This document shows positions 4,620 to 35,771 of a stretch of 35,771 nucleotides of DNA, one piece after another. Numbering within the stretch: the first letter of the stretch is position 1; the number at the start of each line of letters is the position of its first letter. Source of the stretch: a virus. The translations under genes and the position numbers were made by a program. The stretch lies in IMG/VR virus record IMGVR_UViG_3300046006_005879, positions 1 to 35,771 of that record, one strand, 5' to 3'. Under the pieces are notes generated by a model that was given only the letters and a program-made list of their open reading frames with translations, was not told the DNA's origin and made no database searches.

Positions 4620-7600
4620 TTAGGTGTTTTGGATTTGAAGCGTGACTTTATTTTCAGGGGTGTATTCGAGAAAGAACCGATTCCAGACCCCAGCGACATT
4701 GACGTAGTTGTCAAAGTTGCATTCGATCGGGCTTGCCCACATCGGCTTGTTTGTGCCATCTGCCATGAAATAGTAGATGGTTTTCTTTGCGTAAGCTGCA
4801 CCTGTCGCGTCCACGGAAAGGGAAACTGTGCCGGTGATCACATGGGAGAAAGAATAATCATCATCAAATAACAATTCGAAGTCAATCGCTCCGGTGCCTG
4901 GATTCGCAGCTCCGGAAGTATCCATGATCTGCACCACAGGATTTCCTTGAGGGCTCCATTCTATTCTGATCCGGTTCCATTCACCGTTGGTATTGTTCCA
5001 GCCATCATAGAGAATCGAGAAATTGTCTGAAGTCTTGAAAGTTGGTTTATCCACCCCGTTAGCCTTCACATACAGGACGGTGTGATTGGGGAAAGTTCGG
5101 GCAAGTGTCGTGTTAACCGAAATCTCCACCGGTCCCGCCATCTCGTGGGAATACCGATAGTTCTGGTCGAAAGGAATGACCGGAAAGCCGGTGAGTAAGG
5201 TGAGGCCGGAAGTTCCTCCGCCACCGCCTGTTGAATTGATAGTCACATTTCCAGTGCCAACCAATCTACCCGTCAAGGTTCCAGAAAGTGATACGTTAGT
5301 CCCTGCTATCAAATCCCCTTTTAAAAATTCAGGTTCTGCATTAATTTCCGCAGGTGTAGGAAAAGTAAGTATTGGATTGTCTGGATCGGTGTTATCTACT
5401 CCATCCCCTGTGACCGAAGCAATACCTCCTCCCACTCCCACATCTGCCATCGTGGCAAATGGATTGGCTGTACTTGGTGAAGCTGCTGCTGCTGCTGCGT
5501 CTGCCTGGTCTTTGGTCACATGATACCTTTCTGTTGAAGTACCACCCTGAAGACCTAATAAAGTATTGTGAGTATTAGATGAGACAGGCTGATCGACTCC
5601 GCCTTGTAGTTTTACATTATCCAAATAGAATCCTGCATGTGTGCCTCCGCCTTTCATTGCAAATCTTATTTCGATTGCTTTGATCGTAGTAGTCAGGAAC
5701 GTGAACAAAGTCAGATCCAACCCGATGAACTGGTAAGCCAAAGAAGCTCTGTTGAATTGAATTGATACAGCATTCGAAGCAGGAGCCAAAGAAGCATCCA
5801 GGAAGATCACCGAGATCAGTTGATTGTTTGCCATCGTGGCAATCAGATCAAGATCAAACCCCAAAGTCGCATCTGTCAACGTGGTCAGATCGATGGTACT
5901 CGCTCGGGTGAATCTTACTTTGTATTGATTCGCGATTTCGGTTGACTTCACGGCCTTGGTTCCGCTCTTTGGATTGTCCGTACTTGCCGGGTCCATCGTG
6001 CCTATGCCTGTCTTACTTACAGTCCACTCTGTATTTTCCAGATACACATCTTCAGTCACCACACTTGGAGGTACGGTTGCAAGTGCAGGAACCAAAACTA
6101 CCAATCCTTCGACTTCTGTTTCCGGATCTACCTGCGGAATGGTAGGAGAAGCCGCAGCCGTTCCTTTCAAATAGAAAAGTTCGGCAACTCCTGCACTCAC
6201 ATACCTCCACCCCAAGACATCGAATCTGTCAAAGCTTGCATCTGCTGCATCCAAGGTGGAAGCTGAAGCAGGTGCTGTCAATATTTCCCCTGTTGCTACA
6301 ATCGCAAGTGAAGACACATAAGAGAATCCGGTCCCTGTATATTGAATAGTCCCTCCACTGAGTAGCCCATACTGAGGAATGTTTGGCAACTGCGAAAGCG
6401 TGACAAACTCATCTGCCTCCACTCCAGGCAATCCTCTCACTGGTTTGTCAAATTGATACTGAATTATATCTTCTGCAAAATCTCGGATAGCTTTGATTCC
6501 CGAATCCTCAAACCTGCCATCCCTGATAATAGGAATCACATCATCCAAGTCTCCCAAATCAACCGGAACAGAAGGAGCCACGGGTTCGGTGCTTCCTTCA
6601 CCATCCGGACCGCCTCCACTGTTTGATCCTGTGTTGGGAGAAGAACCTGACTTCGCTTCTTGGACTACTCGGATTTCTACCGTGGTTTCGGTTTGGTTTA
6701 TTTCTACAAAGTCCGGAGACCATTCTCCGCTCTTGGCATTCCATTCACCACCGGTGAGAAGGAACTTCCGATCTGGTTCGTTTACTGTGTCTTCGTAATT
6801 AGAAAGCCGTGAAGAGTCCGCGCGGTATCTCCCACCCATCAATCGGTAAGTAGTTCGCTGGTATTGGTTGGCAAGCTCTCTGCAAAGCAACTCAGCAAGC
6901 GGAAGAGATTCCGTCACACCTGCCCGGCTCCACTCACTTGTCGGTGAATCGTTCACGATCTTGGCATTCTGACTCATGACCGTGGCCACGTCTCCAAGTT
7001 CGATCTTCAGTTCTTCGAGTGTCGAAGTATAAGTCTCGGGATTGTTGGTCTTGTAATAGACCCGCTCATTCTGAAGAGCCGGATTATCCACCAGGTTGAT
7101 CTGAACATTGTCCACGTCAAAGACATAGATCACTTTACTCACAGATCCCACTTGAACTATTTGATACAGGTAGAGACTCACGTCACCGTCTTCCGGTATC
7201 TCTACCGATGGAAGCACGATGTCTTCCCATCGCATCACTTCCGCGATCTTCCATTGGATTCGTGTTTCTGTTGGTGTCCAGGTCGCCACATCTCCTGTCA
7301 CAGATAGCCACTTGGTGCCACACTTCACCGCGATGTTGAAGTAAGCCTCCACCAATCTGTTGTCTGATCCGTACGTATTGGCACGGAAGCGGCAAGCAAC
7401 CTGAATCAAGTTGCCTACCTCTTTCTTGATCGGAAATGGTTTCGAAATCAATCTTCCCACCGGATCGCCAAAGGACCGCACGACATCGTAAATATTGATG
7501 AAGTTGTTACTTGTCTTTAAATCTATTTTTTCTGTGACCCTACGCACCCGACCCAGCGAAGTGGAGTTGGTGAATGGGAATACTTCTAATTTATCATACG

Positions 7601-25976: not shown

Positions 25977-27386
25977 TTAAAACTTTTTCTCTACCTGATT
26001 CCAGTCGAATGATTTCTTCTCTTCTTCTTGGTTGCCCCAATCAGTGAAGTCCACATACTTGGGATGAAAGTTCATTACGAAGTCACCCACTGGACCGTTC
26101 CGGTGCTTGGCTATGTTACCAACTGCTAGGCCTTGCGTGTTAATCACACCCATGCCATCGAACTCCATCTCAGTGATCCCATAGTATTCCGGTCGGTAAA
26201 GGAAGATCACCATGTCCGCATCCTGCTCTATCCCTCCCGATTCTCTCAGGTCTGATAGTTGTGGCCGTTTATCTCCCGCGCGTGTCTCCACTGCTCTGGA
26301 TAGCTGAGAGAGTGCGATCACCGGGATGTTGAGTTCCTTAGCCAGTATCTTCAAGCCTCTTGAGATCCGGCTGATCTCCTGCTCTCGATTAGATCCTTTG
26401 ACCTCATCACCCATCAGTTGGAGGTAGTCCACTATGATCATGTCCAGTTCCCCTTTGGCTTTCATCCTGTTTGCTTTGGCACGTAAGGCTATCAGAGAGA
26501 GCCTTGCCTGATCATCGATGTTGATCTTGTAGTTAGTCAGTTGATTCACTTTGAGTGACATGGCATTGATCTCAGGCTGAGTCAGGTCCCCGCGCTGCAT
26601 TTCGGTCACGGACTTGATTCTTGTCTCTTGCGAAATCAATCGATAGGTCAACTTGGAGTGTGGCATTTCCAGTGAGAAAAACAGCACACCCTTCTTCTCC
26701 TTGGCTGCTGATCTGGCAAAAGCCAACGCAAGAGCCGTCTTTCCCATTGCTGGTCTGGCTGCCAAGATCACCAGGTCTCCATTCTGCCAGCCTCCCGTAA
26801 GTCCGTTCAGCTTGGTGATGGGTGTGGGAATACCGGTGATCTGGTTGTTATCCTTTTTGATCATATTCAGAGCCATCTCCCTGAAGACCTGCACCGTGCT
26901 GTCTTTGATGCTGATGGCTTGCTGGGATGAGATGCCACCAGTCAGGTTGATCATTTCGCGCTGGATGCTGTCCATCAGCTCAAAGATGTCTGTGGTCTCA
27001 TCATACCCGGCTTTGAGTGTTTCCTGCGAAAGCCTGATCATTTGTCGCATCAGGTACTTTTCCTGCAAAAGCTTCAGGTGAATTGCCAAGTGCGATGCTG
27101 AGGCCACTTTCGAAGTCAGTTCAGTGAGGTAATAAGCACCACCAGCCGCCTCCAATTTCCCCATACTTCGAAGCTGAGAAGTGACTGTCAAGAGATCCAC
27201 CTGCGAGCCTTCTCCGTATAGAGTTAGGATGGCTTCGCAAATCAACCCATGCGAATCCTTGTAGAATATCGCTGGCTTCATCTCTCCTGCTGCCTCTGTC
27301 AACGCGGCTGATTCCAGCATCACAGCACCCAAAACCGCTTCTTCAAGTGCAATGTCTTGTGGGGGTATTTTTCCTAAGATATTCAT
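25977..27386 (-). CDS. dnaB: Replicative DNA helicase, DnaB family
   Basis: A 469-aa helicase. The N-terminal DnaB domain begins IPPQDIALEEAVLGAVMLES; the RecA-like core has Walker A AARPAMGKTALAL and IIVDYLQLM, and the arginine-finger region EQDADMVIFLYRPEYY. It unwinds the phage replication fork and lets the phage bypass host helicase loading. It overlaps the recombinase gene by 4 nt (ATGA). Confidence 0.95.
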   Translation of the reverse strand: MNILGKIPPQDIALEEAVLGAVMLESAALTEAAGEMKPAIFYKDSHGLICEAILTLYGEGSQVDLLTVTSQLRSMGKLEAAGGAYYLTELTSKVASASHLAIHLKLLQEKYLMRQMIRLSQETLKAGYDETTDIFELMDSIQREMINLTGGISSQQAISIKDSTVQVFREMALNMIKKDNNQITGIPTPITKLNGLTGGWQNGDLVILAARPAMGKTALALAFARSAAKEKKGVLFFSLEMPHSKLTYRLISQETRIKSVTEMQRGDLTQPEINAMSLKVNQLTNYKINIDDQARLSLIALRAKANRMKAKGELDMIIVDYLQLMGDEVKGSNREQEISRISRGLKILAKELNIPVIALSQLSRAVETRAGDKRPQLSDLRESGGIEQDADMVIFLYRPEYYGITEMEFDGMGVINTQGLAVGNIAKHRNGPVGDFVMNFHPKYVDFTDWGNQEEEKKSFDWNQVEKKF

Positions 27387-28186
27387 ATTGGAGTTTGAAC
27401 TTTATTGATTAAAGTAGTCGATACGTGAGTATATATTTCGGTGGTCTTACTGGAGCTGTGACCCAATAGTTTTTGAATGATTCTCAAATCAGTTCCTGAT
27501 TCGAGCAAAGCAGTTGCGTTGGAATGTCGCAGTTGGTGAAAATGGTAATCGTTTCCCAAATATTGCTTCACGATCTGATTACATGATCTTGGAGAGTATT
27601 TGGGTTCAGATTGACCATTGAATAAGTATTCTTTGGGTCCGTAGGCTTTGAAATATTCCCTCATAGTTTCCAGATTAGTTTGACTGAGAGGAACAATCCT
27701 ATCCTTTCTACCTTTCCCCTGTCTGACCATAATCAGCATCCTTTTGGAATCAATGTCAGCTATTTTAAGATTGCATACCTCCGAAACTCGCATCCCTGTA
27801 CTGAAAGCCAACGTGATTATTGCTTTGTGCTTCAGGTTAGTGATTTTTCTGATAGATTGGAGAATATGATTTTTATCTATGATCTGAGGCAGATTCTTCT
27901 CACTCTTTGGGTATTCGATGTATTTGAATTTCAAAGGCTGCTTTCCAGTGGTGGAATAGAAAAGTTTAACAGCCGAAATCCGGTGTTTTCTTCCATTGAT
28001 AGACTTCGCCTCCAATAGCCAGGACTTGATCATTTGTTCTTTGATTTCAGAAGGCTTAGTCACCTGATCATTGAATCGTTTCAGAAATAATCCAACCTGA
28101 CTCACGTAATTAGAAATCGTATTTTCAGAGTAGTTTTTAAGTATCAAATCCTCGGAATAGCGAGATAAATAGTTTCCGATGTTCAT
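27383..28186 (-). CDS. Second tyrosine recombinase, XerC-like
   Basis: A 267-aa recombinase with a complete catalytic set: Arg133 (TGMRVSEV), Lys158 (GKGRKDR), His217/Arg220 (FHQLRHSNAT), His243 (LLGHSSSK) and Tyr252 (EIYTHV). The N-terminal 85 residues form the SAM-like core-binding domain. It is short and lacks the extra insertion of integron integrases. It is unlike the 391-aa integrase of this phage. It lies in the replication operon, coupled to dnaB, and starts close to an attC-like cassette. Roles to consider: multimer resolution, or a different site-specific recombination. Confidence 0.88.
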   Translation of the reverse strand: MNIGNYLSRYSEDLILKNYSENTISNYVSQVGLFLKRFNDQVTKPSEIKEQMIKSWLLEAKSINGRKHRISAVKLFYSTTGKQPLKFKYIEYPKSEKNLPQIIDKNHILQSIRKITNLKHKAIITLAFSTGMRVSEVCNLKIADIDSKRMLIMVRQGKGRKDRIVPLSQTNLETMREYFKAYGPKEYLFNGQSEPKYSPRSCNQIVKQYLGNDYHFHQLRHSNATALLESGTDLRIIQKLLGHSSSKTTEIYTHVSTTLINKVQTPI

Positions 28187-28238
28187 GTTTCATTGGGTTT
28201 TAAATCAGGCAGTTATAAAGTAAGTTTACATATAGTTG

Positions 28239-28475
28239 TTATGAGCCATGCCTGAAATTCCATTTAGCCAGCAAAGACTCCTTAGAGGTTCCAAGCATAG
28301 ACACAGAGCAATCAACATTAGGGCCGTGAAGTATTCTATACCAAGTGACCGTTCCGTCTTTGCTTTTTTTTGTTAAAATGTCAAGATCCGATAATCCACA
28401 AAAAGGGCACGGGCTCATAACACCACCTTGACTAGATGGGGTTTCGGAAATAGAATTTTGTTTTTCAGTACTCAT
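28239..28475 (-). CDS. Restriction alleviation protein, Lar-like
   Basis: A 78-aa protein with CPFCG at residues 22-26, a central WYRILHGPNVDC, and C-terminal LLAKWNFR, the layout of the Lar family. Lar of the Rac prophage lowers type I restriction of incoming DNA. The first 20 residues are polar and likely disordered. The second zinc pair is incomplete: C at about 56 is single. Early position suits an antirestriction role. Confidence 0.75.
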   Translation of the reverse strand: MSTEKQNSISETPSSQGGVMSPCPFCGLSDLDILTKKSKDGTVTWYRILHGPNVDCSVSMLGTSKESLLAKWNFRHGS

Positions 28476-28537
28476 AGTATTTTTATTTAAGTTGTAAGAT
28501 TTATTTACAAGTTCCCCACCTCGTCAAGCTGTCGGAC

Positions 28538-28566
28538 GTTATAAAACATTAAAACGATTTTATAAC
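28538..28566. repeat. Palindrome with GTTATAA ends
   Basis: GTTATAAAA (28538-28546) and TTTTATAAC (28558-28566) form a perfect 9-bp inverted repeat with an 11-bp spacer. Its right arm is also the outer arm of the attC-like repeat. Confidence 0.6.
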
Positions 28567-28690
28567 ATGGTATATAAAGCAAGTGGGCGAGTGGTGCGCA
28601 GCCTTTCAACTGTAAGCCTATTTTCACACTCTTGTAAACTTGCAAGTCTTCCTTCTTAACCCACCTGCTTATATACCAATACCGTTATAA
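28560..28690. repeat. attC-like inverted repeat 1
   Basis: Outer arms TTATAAC (28560-28566) and GTTATAA (28684-28690); inner arms GGTATATAA.GCA.GTGGG (28569-28587) and CCCAC.TGC.TTATATACC (28660-28677), with one extrahelical A and one mismatch. Spacers of 2 and 6 nt separate outer and inner arms. A 72-nt centre holds further small palindromes. Total 131 nt, similar in size and arm order to large integron attC sites. It begins 13 nt past the P-loop gene stop. No CDS is seen in it. Confidence 0.5.
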
Positions 28691-28703
28691 GAAATAAAAA
28701 ACA

Positions 28704-28991
28704 CTACCGTTTGCGTTTCTTATTAGCTTTTCGTTCCTGTTCACGTCTTTTCCTACGCTGCTCTTTGCCCGAAGGTGGTGTTCCTAATATCATTGGTTGC
28801 TCCATTATTGGCGGTGCTGTTATCTTGTAGCTTGGTATGTTTCCGAAATCCTCGGGCTTTAATCCCTGCACCTTCGCTTCTTCGGGTGTTACCAATACAA
28901 TATCATCACCGTATTTCTCTTTCATAGCTTGTAGCATCAAGGCACTTTTACCCCCACCACCGCTTCCTATTATTAAAATTTTCTGTGTCAT
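28704..28991 (-). CDS. Small P-loop protein in a cassette-like unit
   Basis: A 95-aa protein with a Walker A motif GSGGGGKSAL at about 9-18, immediately after a beta strand KILIIG, and a C-terminal tail of mostly K and R (last 20 residues). There is no Walker B and the length is too small for a full NTPase domain. The tail may bind nucleic acid or ribosomes. The gene is framed by GTTATAAGAA (28684-28693) and TTCTTATAAC (29008-29017), so gene plus left repeat could move as one unit. Confidence 0.65.
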   Translation of the reverse strand: MTQKILIIGSGGGGKSALMLQAMKEKYGDDIVLVTPEEAKVQGLKPEDFGNIPSYKITAPPIMEQPMILGTPPSGKEQRRKRREQERKANKKRKR

Positions 28992-29010
28992 ATCCGTGTT
29001 TTTTACATTC

Positions 29011-29074
29011 TTATAACAGCACCTTAGCGTCAGCTTCGTTCCTCAGCCGAACGCCAAGCTGCAAACCGTTAGAA
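29011..29074. repeat. attC-like inverted repeat 2
   Basis: Outer arms TTATAAC (29011-29017) and GTTAGAA (29068-29074) differ from perfect by one pair. Between them CAGCTT-CGTTC (29031-29041) pairs with CGAACG and AAGCTG (to 29061). The bases just before each right arm are alike in both units: CAATACC-GTTA and CAAACC-GTTA, and GAAAT follows shortly after both. Confidence 0.45.
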
Positions 29075-29094
29075 AGAAATCCCTTCGGGCTTCC

Positions 29095-29826
29095 TTAAAT
29101 CAAATTACCTCCCATCACTCGACTTGGCACCGGAACAAATCCTGTTTTGCCTCCACTTCCTTTTGCATGCGCAATGAATTTATTGAAGGAATTCCGAAGA
29201 TGCTCTTTCGTTTTGAACTCAGTCGCAAGAGCCTCATTTTTTCGAAGCCATTCACCGTGAAATCTGTTGACCTCCACATCCGAAACCGAATGCAAATGTT
29301 TCATCTTTTCAAAGAAAACTCCCGCCACTCCGGCCTCTGAAAAAATTGATTTACTATCCTTCAAAAGAGACACATAGTCAGCCGTCGCATGACTCTCTTT
29401 CTCATTCTCTTTCTTATTCTCTTTCTTATTATTATTACGATACACCTCAGATACCATATCGATACCATATACATACTGTATCAGGTGAAAATCCTTCACA
29501 GTAGATAATTCTTTATCGACCAGTGTTTTTATCTTGGGTGAAGAATTAAAATTATACTTTGCCCAATTTTTCAGTGCAATCTCCTGAGAATCCTCCGATA
29601 CCTTGATTTTCTCGTATTCCTGAAATCGCTTGATGAGTTTTTTAACCGTGTCTTCGTTGTAACCTGTCTCCATGCACATGATTTGAACCGGAAGTTCAAA
29701 GATCCCACACTGTTTTGTGGATGGATTGGTCATCAGATACAGGTAGAAAAACTTCTCTTCAGGTGTCAGTTTCAGTACGAAACCATCCCTCCAAAACTCT
29801 GTAAAAACTTGTCTATATTTTGCCAT
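29095..29826 (-). CDS. Replication initiation protein, DnaD-like
   Basis: A 243-aa protein resembling phage replisome organisers: N-terminal winged helix (FWRDGFVLKLTPEEKFFYLY, then IFELPVQIMCMETGYNEDTV), a linker rich in N, K and E (about 132-145), and a C-terminal helical domain. It would bind the phage origin and load the DnaB encoded downstream. Confidence 0.78.
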   Translation of the reverse strand: MAKYRQVFTEFWRDGFVLKLTPEEKFFYLYLMTNPSTKQCGIFELPVQIMCMETGYNEDTVKKLIKRFQEYEKIKVSEDSQEIALKNWAKYNFNSSPKIKTLVDKELSTVKDFHLIQYVYGIDMVSEVYRNNNKKENKKENEKESHATADYVSLLKDSKSIFSEAGVAGVFFEKMKHLHSVSDVEVNRFHGEWLRKNEALATEFKTKEHLRNSFNKFIAHAKGSGGKTGFVPVPSRVMGGNLI

Positions 29827-34167: not shown

Positions 34168-34599
34168 ATGAATGAGAAAAGATTTTTTTCAGAAGCCTTA
34201 AAGGACTGGAGAAAAAACAAAGAGTTGACTCAAAAGGACGTTGCTGATAAGATAGGTCTAACCAGGACAATCATTTCATTCCTTGAGAATGGACTGCAAA
34301 AACCGCAACTCCATCACCTCAATTTATTAAAAGAGAAATTCAACGTGGACTTCTTTGATACCGTCTTGGATCTTCCCCAATCGGAGCAGAATCACTTTGG
34401 CCCTCCACGCGAATCCGATCTTTCCACAGCCACCTTTGTAGAGATGTACAACACTTTAAAGGAGGTTAAGAAAGATTTAATCCAAGTAAATAATTTACTT
34501 GACGAACTCTTTAAATCTTATGATGACACGCCATTTGAAGTGATCAAAGGCTTAAAAGTCATTCAAAAGGTAGTCGGTGATTCAATCAAGAAATTTTAA
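34168..34599 (+). CDS. Phage repressor, XRE/HTH type
   Basis: A 143-aa regulator. Residues about 8-62 are an XRE HTH (LKDWRKNKELTQKDVADKIG then RTIISFLENGLQKPQ). A linker precedes a helical C-terminal (about 90-140) likely for oligomerisation. No peptidase motif, so induction may depend on the antirepressor rather than RecA. Only this gene and the 10968-11428 pair are phage genes on plus. Its stop interlocks with the integrase stop. Confidence 0.88.
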   Translation: MNEKRFFSEALKDWRKNKELTQKDVADKIGLTRTIISFLENGLQKPQLHHLNLLKEKFNVDFFDTVLDLPQSEQNHFGPPRESDLSTATFVEMYNTLKEVKKDLIQVNNLLDELFKSYDDTPFEVIKGLKVIQKVVGDSIKKF

Positions 34600-35771
34600 C
34601 CCATGATCCTCATCATCTCATCATTTGCTTCTTCGTTTTCTATCCCGATGTAAAGCTCCGTCACGGCAATACTGGAATGTCCCAGGTACTTGCTCAGCAT
34701 CAGCAGCGATCCACCCATATCAAACCACCTTCGAGCAAAGGTCCTTCTAGCAGTGTGGCTTGAGATCATTTTGTAGATAGGCTTCATTTCAGCCTTCACT
34801 CTATTTCCAGAGTGTCGCACTTTTTGAAATGGCTGAGTCAGTCCCGCAAGTTCCCCCACATCTTTGATCATCCAGTTTTCAGTCTGTTGAGCCATCACAG
34901 GAAGCATGAAGCTATATTTTTTTGCAAGAGCCTCGGCTTTCGGGTTCAGCTGGATTGATTTGGGTTTCTTCCCCTTGATGTCCTGGTACTTCAGGAAGAC
35001 TTTGCCTCCACGGCTTGAGAAGTGTTGCGGTAAAAGTTGATTCAGTTCTCCCTCCCTCATCCCGGTATAGCATCGGAAAAGAAATCGATCCCGAACTTTG
35101 TCAAGCATTCCTTCGAGTTCGATCTGTTCGATCTGCGAAAGCTGAAGATCCCAATCCAAGTAGAAAGGATTGTACCTGCGTTCCTTGATTTTGAAGTCAG
35201 TGTATTCGACATGAATCGTGAGACCTATCCTTCTGGCAAAATTAGCCACCGCCCGGATCTCCCGCATCTTCCTCACAATCGTATTGTGCAGCAACTCTTC
35301 GTCAATCAGATAGTCTGTGAGGTCCTGATAGAATTGCGTATTGAGCGCGTCAAACTTCATCAAAGGATAATTATCTTTGAAGAGTTGGCCAAGACTCTTG
35401 AAGTTCTTCAGGTGCGATTGCTCCTTGGTGTTTTTCATCCGGTCCCGGTACAGCTCCACCACCTCCCAGATAAATATAGGATCATTGCTTTCTACCTTCT
35501 GATTTGGGTTGCAGACCTGCTTGACAAAAGCCTCCAAGAATACCCGGTCAGGCATCACCCCCTCCACCTTCGCTTTCACTTTGATTCGTTCTTCCTCGCG
35601 TTCGATTTTATCGAGCTTGCTGTTTTTCTCCCATGCAAAATCCTCTACTTTAGAGACGCGCTGCTCCTTAGGCACCCAGTGAGAAGTTGTGATTCCGGTG
35701 GAAATTTTAAACCGTTTGCCAAGTGCAGACACCTGCCAGATAATTGAATTTCGAGAGAGCGAGAAGGACAT
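34596..35771 (-). CDS. int: Phage integrase (tyrosine recombinase)
   Basis: A 391-aa integrase typical of Bacteroidota: N-terminal arm-binding domain (WQVSALGKRFKISTGITTSH), SAM-like core-binding domain (about 90-200) and catalytic domain with CYTGMREGELNQL (Arg), SSHTARRTFARRWF (His, Arg), and YLGHSSIAVTELYIG (His, Tyr). It recombines the phage with tRNA-Leu. The start lies at the last base of the window; a few upstream residues cannot be ruled out. Confidence 0.93.
   Translation of the reverse strand: MSFSLSRNSIIWQVSALGKRFKISTGITTSHWVPKEQRVSKVEDFAWEKNSKLDKIEREEERIKVKAKVEGVMPDRVFLEAFVKQVCNPNQKVESNDPIFIWEVVELYRDRMKNTKEQSHLKNFKSLGQLFKDNYPLMKFDALNTQFYQDLTDYLIDEELLHNTIVRKMREIRAVANFARRIGLTIHVEYTDFKIKERRYNPFYLDWDLQLSQIEQIELEGMLDKVRDRFLFRCYTGMREGELNQLLPQHFSSRGGKVFLKYQDIKGKKPKSIQLNPKAEALAKKYSFMLPVMAQQTENWMIKDVGELAGLTQPFQKVRHSGNRVKAEMKPIYKMISSHTARRTFARRWFDMGGSLLMLSKYLGHSSIAVTELYIGIENEEANDEMMRIMG

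Follow-up and report, generated by a model that had tools for sequence, protein, structure and literature searches.

How does a phage come to carry, between a DnaD-like initiator gene and dnaB, a row of short genes set apart by hairpins that resemble the attC sites of integrons? This is the question raised by the window, the whole stretch of 35,771 nucleotides analysed here (positions 1 to 35,771 of IMG/VR record IMGVR_UViG_3300046006_005879), which stems from a virus whose hosts are probably Bacteroidota bacteria. The answer we favour is that the module is very likely a phage-encoded, integron-like platform for gene capture, the recombination being inferred from comparison of sequences. An earlier note had read an integron-like cassette array in the phage early region at this place. 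That reading is supported, though it was incomplete: missing from it were the adjacent recombinase at 27383-28186, on which it was silent, the attI site, a third hairpin, the orientation of the genes, which is reversed relative to attC, and the fact that the recombinase is not IntI.

The module region reads on the minus strand, towards smaller coordinates. It begins with the DnaD-like initiator gene (29826-29095), followed by hairpin C (29011-29074; 33.4 bits and E 1.2e-4 with the covariance model R1 described below, single-stranded DNA fold z -3.73), whose outer end, TTCTAAC, closes the array on the phage side. Hairpin C and the gene for a 95-residue P-loop protein (GSGGGGKS; 28704-28991), a cargo of unknown function, make up cassette 1 (28685-29068). 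Cassette 2 (28539-28684) is gene-less and structured, consisting of hairpin B (28560-28690; 50.3 bits, E 6e-8, single-stranded DNA fold -21 kcal/mol, z -3.67) and a conserved 29-nt tail, GTTATAAAATCGTTTTAATGTTTTATAAC (28538-28566). Cassette 3 (28239-28538), proximal to attI, joins hairpin A (28415-28544; 68.3 bits, E 2e-11) to the gene for a Lar-like restriction-alleviation protein (28239-28475). The attI-like site (28186-28245) comprises CTCATAAC (28238-28245), then AACTATATGTAAAC and an inner TTTATAAC (28212-28219), and ends at the start codon of REC, a tyrosine recombinase of 267 residues (27383-28186) that we presume to be the cassette recombinase; dnaB (27386-25977) comes last. The phage's own integrase is a separate gene with a SAM_5 domain at 34596-35771, one end of the window. 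At the other end, a tRNA-Leu gene lies at 129-210, and the two together might denote a prophage with a tRNA attachment site.

The five exact GTTATAA/TTATAAC heptamers that the earlier note had placed at 28212, 28538, 28560, 28684 and 29011 are indeed there, as are the GTTAGAA variant at 29068 and two hairpin units (28560-28690 and 29011-29074) with a CAA(T)ACC lead and a GAAAT trail in common; on the minus strand the folding of both units clearly surpasses that of shuffled sequence (z -3.7 each). The number of heptamers was rejected as evidence, as it is not significant alone: five are seen and 2.23 expected, and 12 of 100 shuffles hold five or more. All five lie inside 806 nt, where about 0.05 would be expected by proportion, an unusual clustering. 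GTTATAA was likewise rejected as a family-wide mark, the outer bases differing at other loci. The count of two units was incomplete, and the unit at 28415-28544, the best-scoring of the three, had been overlooked because its inner core is GTTATGA. The heptamer at 28212 lies inside attI and bounds no cassette, the junction between cassette and attI being the CTCATAAC octamer at 28238-28245. The P-loop gene between two units, read as one cassette, also needs correction: 28560-28690 belongs to the next, gene-less cassette, and the gene's own hairpin is 29011-29074, on its 5' side. Three outcomes had been named as refuting the reading and none came about. The repeats do not occur only here but in dozens of other phages, the P-loop gene is not always accompanied by these flanks (another phage has it without them), and the score of a covariance model, built here from relatives rather than taken from IntegronFinder or HattCI, is far above background.

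Our site detector seeks the order AAC, spacer, stem, then stem, spacer, GTT, and complementarity of cassette ends is not among its criteria. It found 96 sites in the 99.8 kb upstream of REC, whereas the 131 kb downstream gave 4 and shuffled sequence 1. Among the 195 sites retained after filtering, the cores are TAACG (G in 192/195) and TGTTA (T before GTT in 194/195), the spacers are mostly of 5 and 1-2 nt, and lengths are mostly 115-130 or about 85 nt. The covariance model R1, built from 50 sites of other loci, all in other phages and with the window left out, gave exactly three matches in the window (E 2e-11, 6e-8 and 1e-4; the next stands at 2.7). With three sites inside 660 nt, the array also passes the test for integron membership that asks for two or more attC sites spaced by under 4 kb, each a hairpin with R and L boxes. 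Covariation in the stems reaches 0.628 versus 0.161 in shuffled alignments, 88.5% of stem cells are paired (60% in shuffles, 37-50% when slid), and double changes number 313 versus 117 in shuffles. Both the architecture of the sites and the covariation are shown by sequence. One stem pair is G.T in 46 of the 50 sites, leaving a C.A mismatch on the opposite strand, and on inspection the three window sites carry it too. A T-A pair of the stem is also nearly invariant (47/50; columns 19-153 of alignment A3), and it is possible that the recombinase makes contact there. In 180/195 sites it is the gene-sense strand whose single-stranded DNA folds better. Integrons choose the strand by extrahelical bases and an unpaired central spacer; here the features that could guide the choice are the asymmetric spacer and the conserved G.T pair, a consistent bulge being present in some sites only. 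Applied to the class 1 site in L082, R1 gave no match. On canonical IntI loci the detector gave isolated matches only, owing to the shortness of these loci and its own tuning to long stems, and R1 was taken as the control there. A search of 28100-29200 against Rfam gave no match.

In an integron, closing a cassette into a circle brings its two outer ends into pairing. In the present family GTTAxxxx opens a cassette and yyyyTAAC closes it; five bases beyond the core were tested, and every one of them is complementary in 156/246 pairs of neighbouring sites and in 42/57 pairs of a site and an attI, where chance would give 1/1024. Although some sites break this rule, all three window cassettes follow it, with the end pairs GTTATAAG/CTTATAAC in cassette 1, GTTATAAA/TTTATAAC in cassette 2 and GTTATGAG/CTCATAAC in cassette 3.

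The place of entry is equally well marked. A pattern scan of viral contigs yielded 176 relatives of REC, the best 80 of which, 49-75% identical, were kept, and in the related viral loci, about 80 in number, an array of attC-like sites and a conserved attI precede the same recombinase. The site that precedes REC reads TAAC-TA[CT]TATATGTA across 60 different sequences, with a median of 54 nt from its AAC to the REC start codon, and leftwards of its TAAC nothing is conserved except a T. Such a site is shown by sequence, and the membership test of an attI beside the recombinase gene that serves as the entry point of cassettes is met by its conservation, by its variable left side and by a new cassette found at attI in L061 compared with L063. 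Three contigs (L018, L020 and L042) begin exactly at the attI TAAC and two more (L044 and L047) within 3 nt of it; inferred from sequence alone, this fits assembly stopping where the population varies.

Comparison of near-identical phages shows that they diverge only outside attI, with breakpoints at TAAC, and the replacement of cassettes at exact positions is likewise shown by sequence. L060 and L063 are 100% identical over 2651 bp from the exact attI TAAC and unrelated to its left; L070 and L071 repeat the pattern over 1229 bp, and L012 and L013 are 99.98% identical across 5.7 kb from a TAAC. In L034 and L035 both flanks are common (96% and 92%), and the difference is confined between two TAAC cores. 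In L061 a different cassette occupies the attI position, and the end of the attI-proximal cassette of L063 (118 bp, 100%) is found there one position farther from attI; L067 holds a duplicate. A stretch of 1027 bp that adjoins attI in L037 is found inside the array in L002 (93%). Cassette 2 of the window recurs in L194 and L202 with other neighbours on both sides, ending at the same core, and its 29-nt tail occurs exactly in 39 viral-contig stretches, in several of them directly at an attI. Finally, L270, a collinear relative at the DNA level (integrase 64%, dnaD 77%, dnaB 72%), is without the entire 1.7-kb module: in blastn against the window, similarity runs at 77% up to 29099 and resumes at 72% from 27367, leaving 27368-29098 missing, and in L270 dnaD and dnaB overlap (ORFs 5001-5735 and 5732-7144). 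R1 found no site in L270. Its dnaB relative was reached via dnaD, a pattern scan of the viral contigs having returned no relatives of dnaB. Since no second version of the window's own array is present in the collections, the activity of this array is inferred from relatives, from cassette 2 and from L270. Metagenomic contigs are assemblies, but one-sided identity of 100% with different genes beyond it, seen in several pairs, is hard to obtain by error.

What moves is a hairpin and, as a rule, one gene. Upstream of the viral RECs, beyond attI, lie runs of short genes pointing towards REC, and in 128/132 complete cassettes (median 412 bp) the longer ORF faces REC, and 13 nt typically separate its stop codon from the core. 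Since the last gene and REC have no hairpin between them at attI, each hairpin travels on the 5' side of its gene. The membership test of one ORF and one attC as the typical cassette is met, one window cassette being gene-less; that of genes leading away from attI and read from a promoter near it is not, as the genes point to attI. In 72/195 sites the start of an ORF lies within the site itself (antisense control: 5), and in 91/195 it lies up to 60 nt beyond the site. The Lar-like ORF opens within the loop of hairpin A, where its start codon lies, and its TAA stop codon is itself the recombination core. It matches NCBIfam TIGR03655 at E 1.1e-5, below the cut-off, and PHROG 599 at E 2.8e-4, and a pattern scan of the viral contigs returned no Lar relatives. 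The P-loop protein matches NTPases only weakly, and its relatives (70%) lie in three contigs of another phage type (L228-L230), without flanking sites. Few of 131 cassette proteins match Pfam, and those that do include DNA methyltransferases, Mom, GNAT, PAPS reductase and Lar. The cargo consists mostly of small proteins without known function, and the few recognised genes include some for anti-restriction and DNA modification. Gene-less cassettes form a class of their own (28538-28566 in the window; L189, L192, L199 and L212), with a common 29-nt tail and a hairpin and no known function. The 80-nt loop of this hairpin has strong structure of its own, in many cases including two T-arm-like GGTTCGATTCC hairpins; a tRNA was considered and rejected, as ARAGORN calls none at the tail despite the T-arm-like loops.

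The recombinase itself is XerA- or IntI-like by profile, under every curated cut-off. REC matches Pfam PF00589 (6.8e-40) and, both below their cut-offs, NCBIfam XerA (3e-56) and integrase_gron (1e-39), and its catalytic residues R133, K158, H217, R220, H243 and Y252 are complete and invariant among its relatives. It is 29% identical to IntI1, with a gap across residues 186-216. The distance from KGxxDR to HxLRH is 53 residues in REC, 53-54 across phage RECs and 53-59 in chromosomal relatives, versus a median of 100 in IntI, and the IntI model TIGR02249 matches the chromosomal relatives in two pieces, with positions 182-237 unmatched. Our tree separates three groups: IntI is a clade (100/100), so are the Xer proteins of the same genomes (100/98), and RECs from phages and chromosomes make up the third (88/92), within which the phage RECs are together (98/94). 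This tree neither supports nor excludes a shared integron ancestor of REC and IntI. Of the membership tests on the recombinase, REC fails that of the IntI-specific additional domain near patch III, which is treated as defining for IntI (PMC9668308), that of grouping with housekeeping XerC/XerD, and that of being the sole prophage integrase beside attP, the other integrase lying at 34596-35771. Thus, although the system appears to work like an integron, membership of IntI is not met, because the additional domain is absent and REC lies outside the IntI clade. A structure model of REC (pLDDT 88.8) has XerA and then IntI4 as its nearest solved structures, and was left out of the argument because the packing of its domains is uncertain (pTM 0.65).

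The site family extends well beyond phages. Bacteroidota chromosomes encode recombinases about 40-47% identical to REC, many with an N-terminal extension, and have arrays downstream of these genes in which the genes run forward relative to attC and the R1 matches lie on the other strand from these genes. In L133, L143, L100 and L124 the arrays of this site family are long and stand behind such an extended REC-like recombinase. R1 finds sites at E 1e-5 or better in 140 of 296 sampled Bacteroidota genomes, and their association with REC-like genes is shown by sequence: 63/71 genomes with such a gene have sites, versus 77/225 without (odds ratio 15, P 1e-16). The sites do not co-occur with IntI (32/85 with, 108/211 without; odds ratio 0.58). 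At the strict limit used, 77 of the 140 site-bearing genomes have no REC-like match. Among 114 Gammaproteobacteria genomes R1 found no sites in 113, the sole exception being the genome used as centre, and IntI is matched in 74/185 sampled genomes of that class. Of cultured phages, Polaribacter phage Leef_1 (L164) has the recombinase, an attI-like site and three sites by the detector. Its gene Leef1_38, annotated 'integrase', is a distant relative of REC beside attI-like and attC-like sites, and possibly not an integrase of lysogeny. Cellulophaga phage phi17:1 (L188/L269), also cultured, has at least two strong R1 sites in the stretch examined; its annotation has no recombinase, leaving the array without an integrase. 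In a Dehalococcoidia contig (L157, 8609-10350), a REC-like gene is followed by short hairpin sites of about 80 nt with phage-type spacing.

The scenario that we propose is one in which REC, whose part as the actor is inferred, would recognise the folded, single-stranded attC-like hairpin of a circular cassette and join it to the double-stranded attI-like site directly upstream of its own gene. The exchange would fall within the TAAC core, probably at TAA|C, mirroring the G|TTRRRY of integrons; the single-strand mechanism and the exact bond cleaved are inferred. New cassettes would be inserted beside attI and may exit again, each hairpin moving along 5' of its gene, and all genes run towards attI and REC. 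Since the cassette genes face attI and REC, they would be read from the phage early operon and not from an attI promoter, although expression is inferred. Many hairpins supply the start codon of their cassette from the loop, and the well-folding strand is the gene-sense strand, marked by the G.T pair, which is C.A on the other strand.

Could the module simply be an ordinary integron, IntI and canonical attC sites, that a phage acquired? Integrons and CALINs are reported in phages, and IntI1 uses several phage attC sites (Qi et al., 2023; PMC9892861): of two attC sites of Polaribacter phage P12002L tried with IntI1, one gave a sequence-verified junction. The logic of attI, attC and cassette is the same, and in P12002S, the sister phage, the geometry of the sites is similar. 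However, REC lacks the additional domain of IntI (53-54 versus 100 residues) and lies outside the 100/100 IntI clade, the sites track REC-like genes rather than IntI, they are absent by R1 from 113/114 genomes of the Gammaproteobacteria, where IntI is matched in 74/185 sampled genomes, and their spacers are of 5 and 1-2 nt, not the 5 and 6 of the class 1 site. We consider this explanation very unlikely. Very unlikely as well is the idea that REC is a Xer/dif recombinase or an integrase of lysogeny, with hairpins that have nothing to do with it and serve as terminators or other RNA elements. XerA does provide the closest solved structures, and intergenic hairpins can be terminators, but the phage has a separate integrase at 34596-35771, the hairpins, though variable in sequence, retain invariant TAACG/TGTTA cores, the G.T pair and complementary cassette ends, none of which a terminator needs, and changes of gene end exactly at the cores.

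Homologous recombination, or exchange of modules at conserved repeats without any site-specific event, is all but excluded. Phage genomes are mosaic and the sites resemble one another, which speaks for it; yet the breakpoints fall at some 4-5 shared bases, the hairpin stems on either side share little sequence, identity drops from 100% to none at the core, and the complementarity of ends within a cassette is not explained by homologous exchange. The reading that we retain is that of a phage-encoded, integron-like capture platform.

A bolder reading, for and against which we could argue with equal conviction, is that cassette capture had its origin, or was rebuilt, in a lineage of Xer-like recombinases distinct from IntI. 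On this reading the lineage is widespread among the chromosomes of Bacteroidota and includes a phage branch whose cassettes are turned round, bring a translation start of their own within the attC hairpin, and have a conserved G.T pair instead of extrahelical bases for the choice of strand. The accessory genes of phages, those for anti-restriction among them, change very fast, and the module would be a dedicated and testable machine for this, although the benefit to the phage is inferred. If our reading is correct, integron-like capture is not tied to IntI, surveys that require IntI can overlook such systems (sites being present in 140/296 Bacteroidota genomes), and a phage may have a second 'integrase' gene that is no sign of lysogeny. 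Sites with start codons and a mark for the strand would offer a new handle on how tyrosine recombinases choose folded single-stranded DNA.

How does the module compare with known systems? Neither the phage nor the chromosomal system was found described in the open-access literature searched; subscription papers and preprints were outside this scope, and priority is not established. IntegronFinder 2.0 (PMC9024848) names Salinibacter ruber as the complete integron found within Bacteroidetes. The elements of Qi et al. (2023) are attC-like arrays in phages as well, including a Polaribacter phage with attC in divergent directions, but they came from searches for IntI and canonical attC, and are not known to include a phage-encoded non-IntI recombinase with its own attI. 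Archaeal XerA and bacterial XerC-XerD share fold and catalytic residues with REC and are closest to it by sequence and structure search, whereas the Xer proteins of the same genomes form a clade separate from REC. A housekeeping Xer generally works on one dif site, not on cassette arrays. The Bacteroidota chromosomal arrays have the same site family by R1 and related recombinases (about 40-47%), but there the recombinase is N-terminally extended and reads towards the array, and the genes run forward relative to attC, with R1 sites opposite to them. From the integrons of class 1 and of Vibrio chromosomes (IntI/attI/attC), the phage system differs in a recombinase that is not IntI and lacks the additional domain, in cassette genes that face attI, in a hairpin body that lies 5' of the gene and often bears its start codon, in spacers of 5 and 1-2 nt versus 5 and 6 at the class 1 site, and in the conserved G.T pair of the stem. 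It resembles them in the recombinase gene adjoining attI, in the array of one-ORF cassettes and their insertion at attI, in hairpin sites with conserved outer cores AAC...GTT and stems variable in sequence yet conserved in structure, in the complementarity of R'' and R' within a cassette, and in that the bottom strand of the site is the one that folds better.
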